Source: Planoprotostelium fungivorum
Lineage: Eukaryota > Evosea > Variosea > Cavosteliida > Cavosteliaceae
Reading direction: 5' to 3'
DNA: 40,768 bases
Assembly: GCA_003024175.1 (NCBI GenBank)
Contig: MDYQ01000235.1
Coordinates: 1-40,768 of the forward strand
Shown here: piece after piece, positions 1 through 35,600 of the stretch
How positions within the stretch are numbered: the stretch's first letter is position 1
How the letters are laid out: each line of letters begins with the position of its first letter
Made by a program: the position numbers and the translations under genes
Notes under the pieces: model-generated
The model's database searches: none
What the model was told of the DNA's origin: nothing
What the model saw: only the letters and a program-made list of their open reading frames with translations

Positions 1-60
1 ACCCTAAACCCTAAACCCTAAACCCTAAACCCTAAACCCTAAACCCTAAACCCTAAACCC
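1..60. repeat. Telomere repeat array, CCCTAAA type
   Basis: Eight perfect 7-base units (ACCCTAA in this phase) plus four bases run from the first base of the window to position 60. The C-rich strand reads 5' to 3' inward, as expected at the left end of a chromosome, so the G-rich strand would end in TTTAGGG repeats. This is the plant-type unit, also found in several protists. Only the inner edge of the tract is probably present. The array stops abruptly at the retroelement fragment, with no degenerate units between them. Confidence 0.95.
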
Positions 61-6526: not shown

Positions 6527-7315
6527 TCAGTGTTTATATCCACGCTTACGCCACGGGGGATTTTCTGTGCGAGCACGTCTGTTATCGAACCACACACCCA
6601 CTCTCCGTGCAGATATGTTGTGCTCCTTTGCCCATTGTTCTTTCATGTCTTTCGTTGGAAATGGATCGTTGAAATGATCCACAAACCATTTATCCAGCTC
6701 GGCCGCGAGTTCTCTCGGAAATGGTGCCTTCTCGGTTTCAATTACATCGATGCGAGGGTGTCACCTTGACTTTGGAGCTCTTGGATTCACAAAAGGAATT
6801 TACCTGATCTCGGAATTGCATCTGCAGTCCCAGGATGGATTGCGTCTGCATCTCTCGTAGACTGTCGATACCCCTGTCAGACACTGTTTCTTCTCCCGCA
6901 AGAAGGCTCGATGCGATCATCGCTGAGAAGGCCTACTCTCTTTAGTTCACTTAGAAGAGGATCATCACCTCTCTCAACTGATTCTCTTGCTTCAAGTACA
7001 CATCATATGCATACTGCAATTGAACCATCGAGTCATCGTCTAAAGCAACACCAGGAGGTTTGATGTCACTCAGTAACAGTATCGCAGGGAGGTCATGGAT
7101 TTTCTCCTGTTTAGGAGGACTACAGAGTCTTATCTCAGCGTCCGCTTTGGCAAGTTGAGGATACCAATTCAATTCTTGTTTCACCAGATCTTTCGTTCCA
7201 ACTGCCTCCAACAGATCGTCATTCCGGGTGGTGAGCTCACCCAACAGGTGAGTCAGCTGTCAGTGCTCAGAATGCAGCAACACTAGAACAGTCTCACGTC
7301 CTCTACGGTTGTCAT
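6527..7315 (-). CDS. TALE-like homeodomain transcription factor (225 aa), left partner of divergent pair
   Basis: Four exons (7315-7298, 7256-6969, 6932-6765, 6730-6527) join in phase 0. The C-terminal 55 residues are a homeodomain: helix 1 around ELDKWFVDHF, a PFP loop (NDPFPTKDMKEQW) of the TALE three-residue-extension type, helix 2 AKEHNISARR, and recognition helix VGVWFDNRRAR with the invariant W-F-x-N-x-R. The N-terminal 160 residues are helical and acidic and match no named domain. They could serve in partner recognition. The protein ends about 12 residues after the homeodomain. It would act in the nucleus. It is transcribed away from a second homeodomain gene across 98 bases. The ATG at 7315 is the first in frame. 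A TALE assignment looks sound; its targets are unknown. Confidence 0.85.
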
Positions 7316-7413
7316 GTGTGAAGAAAATGCGGTCATCTAAATTTCGCAAACGTATCCGATTGGATAAGACGAGCCAAAGTCTGTTTTCAAACGACCTCAG
7401 GAAGCTACACCGC
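7316..7413. promoter_or_regulatory. 98-base bidirectional promoter between the two homeodomain genes
   Basis: The two start codons lie back to back with only 98 bases between them. The spacer holds an inverted CCAAT-type element (GATTGG near 7352) and AT-rich patches, but no clear TATA box. Any change here could affect both genes, which suggests co-expression. Confidence 0.6.
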
Positions 7414-8312
7414 ATGGACTCCTCTACGACTGAAGACGTTCGGAAGCTGTTGGATCAACGGGCTTCTTGGAAAGATGCACAGCCCGAGGCAAGAGTGATG
7501 TTACATTCTCACCGATGATAATCATCTACAGGTGAAGAAAGAACAGACAGATAGCTTCCTTCAGAACTATCTCGACCTCAAGTCAGTGAAGGATTATCTA
7601 GAACTTGGTTGGCACGTGAAGAACAAAGCCAGTGACACGCTCTCCTATTGCTTACAATACAGCACGAATCTATTGACAAGTATATGCTTCACTGTGATCG
7701 ACTTTGGTCTGGGGACTAAGGTGAATGATGATCTAACGCATCTGGAATTGAACGCCGCAGGCGCCTTCAACACCCACAGAAACGACAAACAAAAAGAGAG
7801 GAAGAAATTCGGATAACGATAAAACAGCCGCCCTGCAGGAGTGGTATAACGATCACTGGGTGAGACGAGAGATGTACGATGTGAGAATGACATCACACAG
7901 GACAATCCATATCCAAAGTTGGCCGAGAAAGAGCAGCTGTCCATCCAATCGGGCTTGAGCATACGACAGGTCTCCGATTGGTTCTGCAACGAGAGAAAGT
8001 ACGTCTCTCCACTTGATCTTCTCCTGACACAGCGGCAGGAATCAAGGAGGGGCTAGAAAGAGGAAGAATGCTCCTTTATTCGATTCCTCATCGAGCGACT
8101 TTGACGGGTTGTCATCACCAAGTCAATGGGAGGGCATCATCAACTTGCAAGGAGACTCTGCATCATCTCTCGATTACGCCCTGGAGTACAACACTCAATT
8201 GGACATGGGAATGGAACAGCTGAAGCACACAGAGAGCTATTATCTCGATGCCTTTCATAACAATGAGCCCTTCGGTGACGAATATCTTCCCACCCTCGAG
8301 ACTTGGAACTAA
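7414..8312 (+). CDS. TALE homeodomain transcription factor (248 aa), right partner of divergent pair
   Basis: Five exons (7414-7494, 7532-7720, 7761-7859, 7901-7998, 8033-8312) give one continuous frame. Residues of about 112-170 form a classic TALE homeodomain: helix 1 LQEWYNDHW, the extended loop DNPYPKLAEKEQL, helix 2 SIQSGLSIRQ, and recognition helix VSDWFCNER. The NPYP and QVSDWF elements match the PBC/MEIS/KNOX/fungal HD1 group. A basic stretch (NKKRGR) precedes it, and another (GARKRK) follows and may be the nuclear signal. The acidic, Ser-rich C-terminus (SSSSDFDG, EYLPTLETW) could be an activation region. The ATG at 7414 was chosen because the N-terminus then resembles that of the divergent neighbour (E-D-x3-LL). 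An upstream ATG at 7327 is in frame and would shrink the promoter. Confidence 0.85.
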
Positions 8313-32618: not shown

Positions 32619-35600
32619 ATGGTGGTTACCACACCTCTTCCCGTATCCCTTTGTGTGTTCGCAATCCTCATTGGAATACCCGAAAGCAGCACGGCGATCG
32701 ATCTATATGGGGCACTGCAGAACATCTGGATGGCCCTGGAAGGTGACTCCTTCTATTTCGTACATATATCGGTCTCGATCACTGAGATGAGATGTTAGGT
32801 CCAACTCCATATTGGAGCGGAATGGATGTGGGTGAAGGGAAGAAATAAGAGCTAACGCCTTTCAGATCTGCAACGCGAAAGACTACATCGGAGTGACTTG
32901 CGATTCCACTGGATCGTGGCCTACCTCCATCCGGCTTAGCAGTAAAAATCTGAACGGCACTCTCTCCCCTTCCATAGGAGATCTCGTCAACCTCACATCC
33001 ATCGATCTCGGTAACAACCATCTGTCCGGTCCCATCCCCGACACCATCGGCCAGCTCGTTTCTCTCACACGTCTCGATCTCTACTACAATCGTCTCAACG
33101 GCTCCATCCCTGATTCCATCGGAAACCTCACCTCTCTCCAGTACCTCTCTCTCTTCTACAACCAATTGACCGGTCCTATTCCTGACTCCATCTGTAACCT
33201 CGCCCCCGTCACGACTCTTTATCTATCGAGCAATCGCCTGTCCGGTTCAATCCCTTCATGCATCGGCAACTTGCATCTTCTCAAGTATCTCTGGCTCTAT
33301 GATAATCAGCTAAATGGTCCCATCCCTAATTCCATCGGCGATCTCATTTCTCTAAGTGACCTCCATTTCGGCAACAATCAACTGAACGGATCCATCCCTT
33401 CTACCATTGGCGACCTCACCTCTCTCACCTCTCTCATCCTCTATGGCAATCAACTGTCCGGCCCCCTGCCAGACTCCATCTGCAACCTTCACCTGCTCAA
33501 TCAACTTCTTCTGCAGAGTAACAAGCTCACCGGACCTATACCTTCTTGCATCGGTAACCTCGCATCTCTCAGTACCCTCTGGCTGCACGGTAACAAGATG
33601 AGCGGTCCCATCCCGGACAGCATCGGCGACACATCCCTCCAGCAGATCCTCCTGAATGGTAATCAATTCGATGGAGTCATACCTGCCTCTATGGGAAAGT
33701 TGAGCAATTTGATGAACATCGAGATGCCGAGGAACCGATTCACGGGTGAGAATTAAATTTCAATTCCGATTTTCATGTTTGATGTTCGTCATCACATCAT
33801 GTCCATCACAGTCACTCACACTCTGATTCAGGAAGTATTCCACAAGAAGTCATCGATCTACCGATTCTGAGTTACTTTGATGTATCTTACAACCTCCTCA
33901 ACGGTACAGTACCCGATAGAAACTCTAGCCTTCCTGCTCTTGGCACTCTCTCGATGGATTACAATCGATTGACCTCGGTGGGGTACATCAATGTCACGGG
34001 CTCTTGTTCTCTCAATGGAAATGCTTTTCCTTGTCTACCCACACTCAACGTGTCGACAAAGTGTGTCGGCAGTGTAGTCTACCTGCCTTGTACCAGTAGC
34101 TCCAGCACCACATCTTCTAGTACCAGCTCAACGTCCAGCACCACATCATCGACATCATCCAGCTCATCCACCACATCATCAACGTCATCCAGCACCACAT
34201 CTTCCAGTACCAGCTCATCGTCCACCACATCATCGACGACATCCAGCTCATCATCCAGTACCACATCATCAACGTCATCCAGTACCACGTCATCAACGTC
34301 ATCCAGCTCATCATCCAGTACCACGAGTTCGTCATCGACGACATCCATCACACCCACCACCTTCATCACTGATCACACGAATGTCACTGTAGTCGTGCAG
34401 ACATTGTACGACAACAACACGAAGATATCAGCGACAGATGCAAAGGTGAGAACCACCTGAAGAGAATCGCGATGTAACTGATTCATCACAGAACATTTTG
34501 AACAGTACACTGCAGAATAATGCGGATGTGAGTGAATGACAGAAGAGAGAGATTGACATGTGATAGACCGTACAAGTCATATCTGCCGTTGTGGTGGCTC
34601 TGTTGCGTAACACTACCGCAGTATCCTTCGATTACATTACGAAAGATGTTTCGATCAAGCTGCAGACGTACAACACGACGAGCCTGAATGTGAGAGAGAG
34701 TATATCGAGTAAGATCGAGAACAGCAGTGTCGCCGTGGCTCTACCTGCGTCTGTCTTTTCATCTCAACAGCAAGGTGAATGGTGCGTGAGAAGTTGTGGA
34801 CTGAGGGACAACAGTTTCCGTGTCGTTATCATCTGTATCGTACAATCCGTTCGAGTCCGTCTACAACGAGACCATGTGAGTCATCGATATTTAATGTGAG
34901 AACAGGAAGATTGAAGGAAGAATAGATACAGTCCAGTCATCGGCGTCAGCGTGTATGCACAAGGCAAAGAGATCGATGTCAGAGGAGTCTCCGAACTCAT
35001 CAACGTCACGATGGGTTCGATCACATCTATACCCTCTGGCTATGGTGAACATTACTCGTCTATATCTCTCTGACGGTGAGAACAGAGGCAGTGTGTCAGT
35101 ATTGGAACGAGACATTCATCTTATGGTCGAGAGATGGTTGCAGCCTCGTCTTCGATGCAGATGTGGCCATCTGTCAGTGCACTCACCTCACCAACTTTTC
35201 CATCGGTGTTCAGCCGCGAGCAGCACCCACAGAACAAGTCATCCCTCCATCACAAGACAGCGGCAGCAGCAAGACGAAGCTGATCATCATTGCCTGCTGC
35301 AGCGCGGGAGGACTTCTTCTCATTCTCATCGTCTCCCTCTTGGTCTATCGCAAGATGCATCGATACAAGAGAGTGAGTAGAAGAGAAATCGAATCGAGCT
35401 GATGAAGCGTAGGATGATACCGAGACGAACTTATCTGTGGTGGTCGATACGGAAGGTATCGAGTTTCAGAAGAAGATTGGGGAGGGAAAGAGAGGACAGG
35501 TGTGGAAGAGCACATACAAAGAGACAACTGTCGTGGCTGTCAAGAAATTGATCGAAGGCATCGATATCGAGAGAGAATGTGATGTAGCAAAGGTGAGGAG

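Follow-up and report, generated by a model that had tools for sequence, protein, structure and literature searches.

The window analyzed here corresponds to contig C187 in full (40,768 bp), from an assembly of 36.86 Mb in 471 contigs. Matches to annotated proteins identify its source as Planoprotostelium fungivorum, a member of the class Variosea in the Amoebozoa. Near the left end of this contig lie two intact TALE homeodomain genes that point in opposite directions (Table 1; hereafter named plus and minus after their strands). The divergent TALE pair described in an earlier sequence-only reading is thereby confirmed, and divergent transcription is evident in both gene models. Our model of plus with the long start comprises five exons (7327–7494, 7532–7720, 7761–7859, 7901–7998, and 8039–8312) separated by four GT-AG introns of 37–41 nt. 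The annotated protein P0001 is 98% identical to this model over 89% of the model, and one end of intron 1 differs. The minus gene consists of four exons (7315–7298, 7256–6969, 6932–6765, and 6730–6527) and three introns, all GT-AG and 34–41 nt long; protein P0002 agrees with this model except that it is one residue shorter. The 98-base promoter proposed earlier holds for the annotated start codons (ATG 7315 on the minus strand and ATG 7414 on the plus strand), but if translation of plus began at the upstream in-frame ATG at 7327, the gap from start to start would shrink to 11 bp.

Table 1. Coordinates of the features at the divergent TALE locus and at the left end of the contig
Feature	Position	Strand	Remark
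Telomere-type repeat (ACCCTAA)8.6	1..60	.	left end of contig
Minus TALE homeodomain gene	6527..7315	-	P0002, PROFUN_13966, 224 aa
Minus TALE homeodomain coding region	6569..6730	-	without internal intron
Two predicted long helices of minus (residues 80-113, 121-154)	6777..7037	-	PBC-B-like in layout only
Interval between annotated start codons, 98 bp	7316..7413	.	putative shared divergent promoter
Candidate N-terminal extension of plus, 29 codons	7327..7413	+	in-frame ATG at 7327; absent from annotated protein
Plus TALE homeodomain gene	7414..8312 as annotated (7327..8312 with long start)	+	P0001, 'irx-related', 241 aa
Exon 2 of plus, weak MEINOX-B-like stretch	7532..7720	+	two-sequence profile
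Plus TALE homeodomain coding region	7788..7998	+	split by intron 7860-7900
Phase-0 intron in TALE loop of plus	7860..7900	+	between first and second extra residue (site a/b, our own count)
Acidic C-terminal tail of plus	8067..8309	+	net -14 over 81 aa

Both proteins match Homeobox_KN (PF05920; plus 52.8 bits, minus 39.4 bits, Pfam cutoff 24) and the Pfam Homeodomain (plus 29.8 bits, minus 30.9 bits, cutoff 22.9), and the Pfam scan returned nothing else above cutoff for either of them. Neither sequence needs a gap when aligned with the PBX1 TALE domain, so both contain the TALE loop, the insertion of three residues between helix 1 and helix 2 that defines the superclass. The loops NPYP and DPFP and the recognition helices WFCNER and WFDNRR are also as first stated. 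Position 50 of the homeodomain is C in plus and D in minus. The homeodomain of plus is preceded by 94 residues in the annotated protein or by about 128 residues with the long start, and that of minus by 155. The sequence-only reading had assigned 110–165 unmatched residues to these N-termini. As far as Pfam is concerned they are indeed unmatched, but our own tests detected weak and mixed traces of dimerization domains, as described below.

Class Affinities of the Two Proteins

A MEIS/KNOX-like class for plus finds weak support in the homeodomain tree, in intron positions, and in the N-terminal sequence. In a tree of 26 rows the plus homeodomain groups with MEIS/TGIF-like rows (support 88/85), and its top paralogues within the genome (C116a, C173, C116b, and C47) all fall on the MEIS/TGIF side. 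The phase-0 intron in the TALE loop of plus occupies a site that we numbered after the scheme of PMC6219170. Four of the nine other distinct TALE loci (C95, C116b, C47, and C134) are split at the same site; the site is unsplit in C173, C116a, C175, and minus, and C231 carries an intron two codons before it. The homeodomain of C95 finds its best PDB matches in PKNOX1 and MEIS, and this locus also shows a sub-threshold match to Meis_PKNOX_N (18.6 bits versus a cutoff of 27). With a profile made from the two sequences C47 and C95, the N-terminus of plus scored 6.9 bits, a value reached by 3 of 5000 shuffles and by none of 162 decoy windows, while the N-terminus of minus scored −0.5 bits. A direct comparison of the plus N-terminus with C47, the best of 12 comparisons, gave a score of 43 (5 of 1000 shuffles as high). 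On the other hand, Pfam matched none of the MEINOX domains KNOX1, KNOX2, or Meis_PKNOX_N in plus at E ≤ 10, and genome searches found none of them on this contig. Among the PDB matches of plus, PBX1 has a higher raw score (41 bits) than PKNOX1 (31.5 bits). The 81-residue tail behind the homeodomain contains 15 acidic residues, a single basic one, and 25 bulky hydrophobic ones, a composition that resembles an activation tail. Structure prediction for plus failed (pLDDT 38).

For minus, a PBC-like class is only suggested. This protein groups weakly with the PBC rows of the tree (support 72/82), and it has almost no tail behind the homeodomain. An AlphaFold2 model computed without an alignment (mean pLDDT 60.5) predicts two long helices followed by the homeodomain. 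PBC-B likewise consists of two long helices ahead of the homeodomain. An alignment of minus with PBC-B made by eye looked convincing, but we do not claim a PBC-B domain in minus: the local score against the PBC profile is −0.7 bits (1811 of 4969 reported shuffles as high), and the profile-global PBC-B score was equaled by 29 of 72 reversed, composition-matched decoys. Other controls reached this global score less often (33 of 5000 shuffles, 49 of 5000 when shuffling preserved the pattern, 6 of 2363 decoy windows, and 0 of 193 coiled-coil windows; an initial, smaller run had given 1 in 300 shuffles and 1 in 400 decoys). On the same scale the PBC proteins used for training reach 210 or more, C231 scores 160, C175 82, and minus 21. 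Anchoring the full PBC plus homeodomain profile at the homeodomain gave a score for minus that 98 of 2000 shuffles attained, and with this profile plus (45.2) scores higher than minus (39.1). An hhalign comparison of minus with PBC (P 0.041) covers 30 columns only, and the amphipathicity of the two predicted helices, matched by 820 and 187 of 2000 shuffles, is in neither case clearly above that of the shuffles. The PBC domain (PF03792) was matched by Pfam neither in the minus protein nor, in the genome search, anywhere on this contig. In the exon-wise search, minus finds its best genome matches in loci outside the TALE group, C225 among them, and the PBC gene C231 is absent from its matches at E ≤ 1. 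The glycine that PBC proteins carry at position 50 (WFGN) is missing from minus (WFDN).

Relatives in the Genome and Chromosomal Place

Minus and plus have the longest end branches in the tree (4.6 and 3.8; median 0.22). Five AU tests rejected no alternative placement (p 0.175–0.329), nor did they reject sisterhood of plus and minus (p-AU 0.238). Single-sequence searches of 5.8 billion proteins, which require shared five-residue words and similar length, found no homologue of either gene outside this genome at E ≤ 0.001. A mixed TALE profile that included both genes found 82 proteins at E ≤ 0.01, of which 73 carry a PBC label and many are more than 40% identical to C231. Since the database appears to contain no close relative, the lack of homologues shows strong divergence and not positive selection.

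To place the pair among its paralogues, we counted homeodomains in the whole genome. Matches to PF05920 (61 places) and PF00046 (145 places) gave 149 places, namely these 145 and four PF05920 places outside them, which merged into 121 homeodomain loci. This number is large for a unicellular amoeba, and some of the weak loci may not be true homeodomains. Judged by eye from loop and motif, 11 loci are TALE; C116:9955 and C116:25783 are near-identical, which leaves 10 distinct ones. C231:21217 and C175:40202 are PBC-class TALE genes with the PBC domain above the Pfam cutoff in their gene models. Together with the MEIS-like C95, which like them lies apart from the pair, they indicate that a variosean amoeba has retained TALE partners of both kinds. 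A divergent pair of homeodomain genes that do not look TALE lies at C2:58810-61644, 2.5 kb apart. The stretch C116:6000-15900 is an inverted near-copy of C116:20000-29900, including a TALE gene, with pieces that are 99.6%, 95.7%, and 90.7% identical, and similar inverted pairs occur on C168 and C65. Either fold-back joins between haplotypes or genuine palindromes may account for these copies.

The telomere-type repeat at the left end of the contig suggests that this end is probably a telomere and that the TALE pair, about 6.5 kb from the presumed chromosome end, is probably subtelomeric. The two strands of the genome hold 193 and 145 matches to a four-unit version of the repeat. Among the matches listed, the repeat stands at the left end of C31, C89, C90, C91, and C118, where it is oriented alike, and lies 3.2 kb inside C20. 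A truncated piece resembling a chromodomain retroelement (43–456), with sub-threshold matches to Chromo and SH3_Tf2-1, abuts the repeat. The gene model upstream of the pair, on the plus strand, runs to 6506, which leaves 20 bp to the minus stop at 6527; tight spacing is thus nothing special here. The downstream gene model lies on the minus strand and is CorA-like, with 127.8 bits over the scanned part. Far from the pair, tandem repeats at 34101–34324 code for a Ser/Thr-rich stretch within an open frame (33954–34460).

Possible Roles of the Divergent Pair

We tentatively favor a reading in which plus and minus are co-expressed divergent TALE partners, plus MEIS/KNOX-like and minus PBC-like, that form a heterodimer and serve as a life-stage switch. 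One short divergent promoter would drive both genes together, and joint expression would supply matched amounts of the two proteins. The heterodimer would act on DNA, with plus as the MEIS/KNOX-like partner that brings the acidic activation tail and minus, which has predicted helices before the homeodomain and hardly any tail, as the PBC-like partner. This dimer may switch a life-stage program that leads to a sporocarp, a cyst, or a zygote. We infer the shared promoter, the dimerization, and the life-stage role. Co-expression as a heterodimer would explain why two TALE genes, perhaps of different class, are adjacent and why only one of them encodes an activation-like tail.

MEIS/KNOX–PBC dimers occur widely, as stated in PMC6219170. 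The pair described here resembles such dyads (KNOX–BELL, MEIS–PBX) in that both proteins are TALE, plus leans to the MEIS side and minus perhaps to PBC, and one partner has an acidic tail. Unlike in these dyads, Pfam detects neither class domain, position 50 holds C and D, and the genes are adjacent and divergent, a layout that goes unmentioned in the portion of PMC6219170 available. New features are the probable subtelomeric place, the long end branches, and the lack of outside homologues at the threshold of the single-sequence searches. Pairs of TALE proteins also control haploid–diploid programs in Ectocarpus (OUROBOROS/SAMSARA) and Chlamydomonas (GSM1/GSP1), according to PMC6368402 and PMC6219170; the present pair is like them in composition. 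If plus and minus form an obligate dyad, they would be a compact and readily testable candidate for the idea that, throughout the eukaryotes, TALE heterodimers sense the fusion of cells and change the ploidy phase. If they are merely a co-expressed developmental pair, they would still open a way into the life cycle of protosteloid amoebae. Searches of the open-licence literature on amoebozoan TALE proteins, homeodomains, and mating type found no description of this pair, and those combining Protostelium with genome and homeodomain found nothing.

Plus and minus could also be chance neighbors, that is, two fast-evolving members of a large homeodomain family that lie next to each other in a compact genome without acting together. 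We regard this explanation as possible but doubtful. With 121 homeodomain loci placed at random, one or more divergent pairs less than 1.5 kb apart arise with a probability of 0.13; five further divergent homeodomain neighbors within 12 kb (on C2, C316, C94, C426, and C5) and the upstream gene model ending 20 bp from minus point the same way. However, this probability falls to 0.001 for the 11 TALE loci alone, both values coming from a null that ignores clustering by duplication, and the five other pairs are 2.5–9.5 kb apart. An old inverted duplication of one TALE gene, the copies of which diverged quickly near the telomere and perhaps under relaxed selection, would account for the arrangement as well, and for the failure of the AU test to reject sisterhood. 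It would fit the probable subtelomeric place and the inverted near-identical copies of other homeodomain genes in this assembly. We consider it improbable in view of the gene structures: plus and minus have no intron position in common, their 33% identity is confined to the homeodomain region, and the similarity of their N-termini does not exceed that of shuffled sequences (270 of 1000 shuffles score as high). A recent duplication is unlikely because the pair shares neither introns nor N-termini, although the homeodomain tree still allows sisterhood.

A role as mating-type locus, to which the sequence-only reading had compared the layout, is unlikely in the form known from basidiomycetes. Under such a reading, each haplotype would have its own diverged version of both genes, products of the same haplotype would not pair, and after cell fusion plus would start the zygote program together with minus of the other strain. 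The comparison stands as far as it concerns two different, divergent homeodomain genes with N-termini of similar length (about 94–155 aa here; about 110–120 aa in HD1 and 130–150 aa in HD2, according to PMC8305134). The long end branches, the lack of outside homologues in single-sequence searches, and the activation-like tail on one partner only also suit a mating-type role. Pairs of TALE or homeodomain-like proteins bring about the change of ploidy phase in plants, algae, fungi, and Dictyostelium, as reported in PMC6219170 and PMC5580921. The genome encodes Mnd1 (51.8 bits), which suggests that the organism may be capable of meiosis. The comparison fails in that both domains here are TALE, whereas in basidiomycetes HD1 is TALE and HD2 has a 60-residue homeodomain. 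Moreover, Mating_N (PF12731), the mark of HD1 proteins, was not matched at E ≤ 10 with HMMER filters on, and no mip-type Peptidase_M3 is found on this contig, the 10 matches in the genome all being on C293, C387, and C4. We therefore reject identity with a basidiomycete HD1/HD2 locus. In addition, only one haplotype is seen: a search with the surrounding 9.5 kb recovered nothing but that region and seven short segments in other places, and the assembly contains no second copy or allele. The fusogen HAP2 (HAP2-GCS1) was unmatched at E ≤ 1 in an exon-wise search with a 515-position profile that can miss it, and the open-licence literature mentions "Protostelium" together with "mating type" only in a classification review.

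A subtelomeric mating-type locus of new make-up, in which a MEIS-like and a PBC-like TALE gene would be linked and divergent in the style of HD1/HD2, seems a slim prospect. If real, such a locus would give Amoebozoa a clear case of sex determined by homeodomain genes and would trace the systems of fungi and plants back to a single ancestral dyad. Compared by description with MatA/MatB of Dictyostelium (PMC5580921), the pair is similar in that both systems comprise amoebozoan regulators with a homeodomain-like fold and divergent sequences. It differs in that both genes here are clear TALE homeodomain genes and lie in one haplotype. Since MatA/MatB, according to the same paper, could not be linked to established homeodomain proteins through sequence comparison alone, a recognizable TALE pair from an amoeba would allow a cleaner test of common descent versus convergence. 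Elsewhere in the genome, at C4:89735-92341, a homeodomain gene that does not look TALE has a Peptidase_M3 gene about 0.8 kb away, an arrangement that recalls fungal mip and is probably a coincidence.
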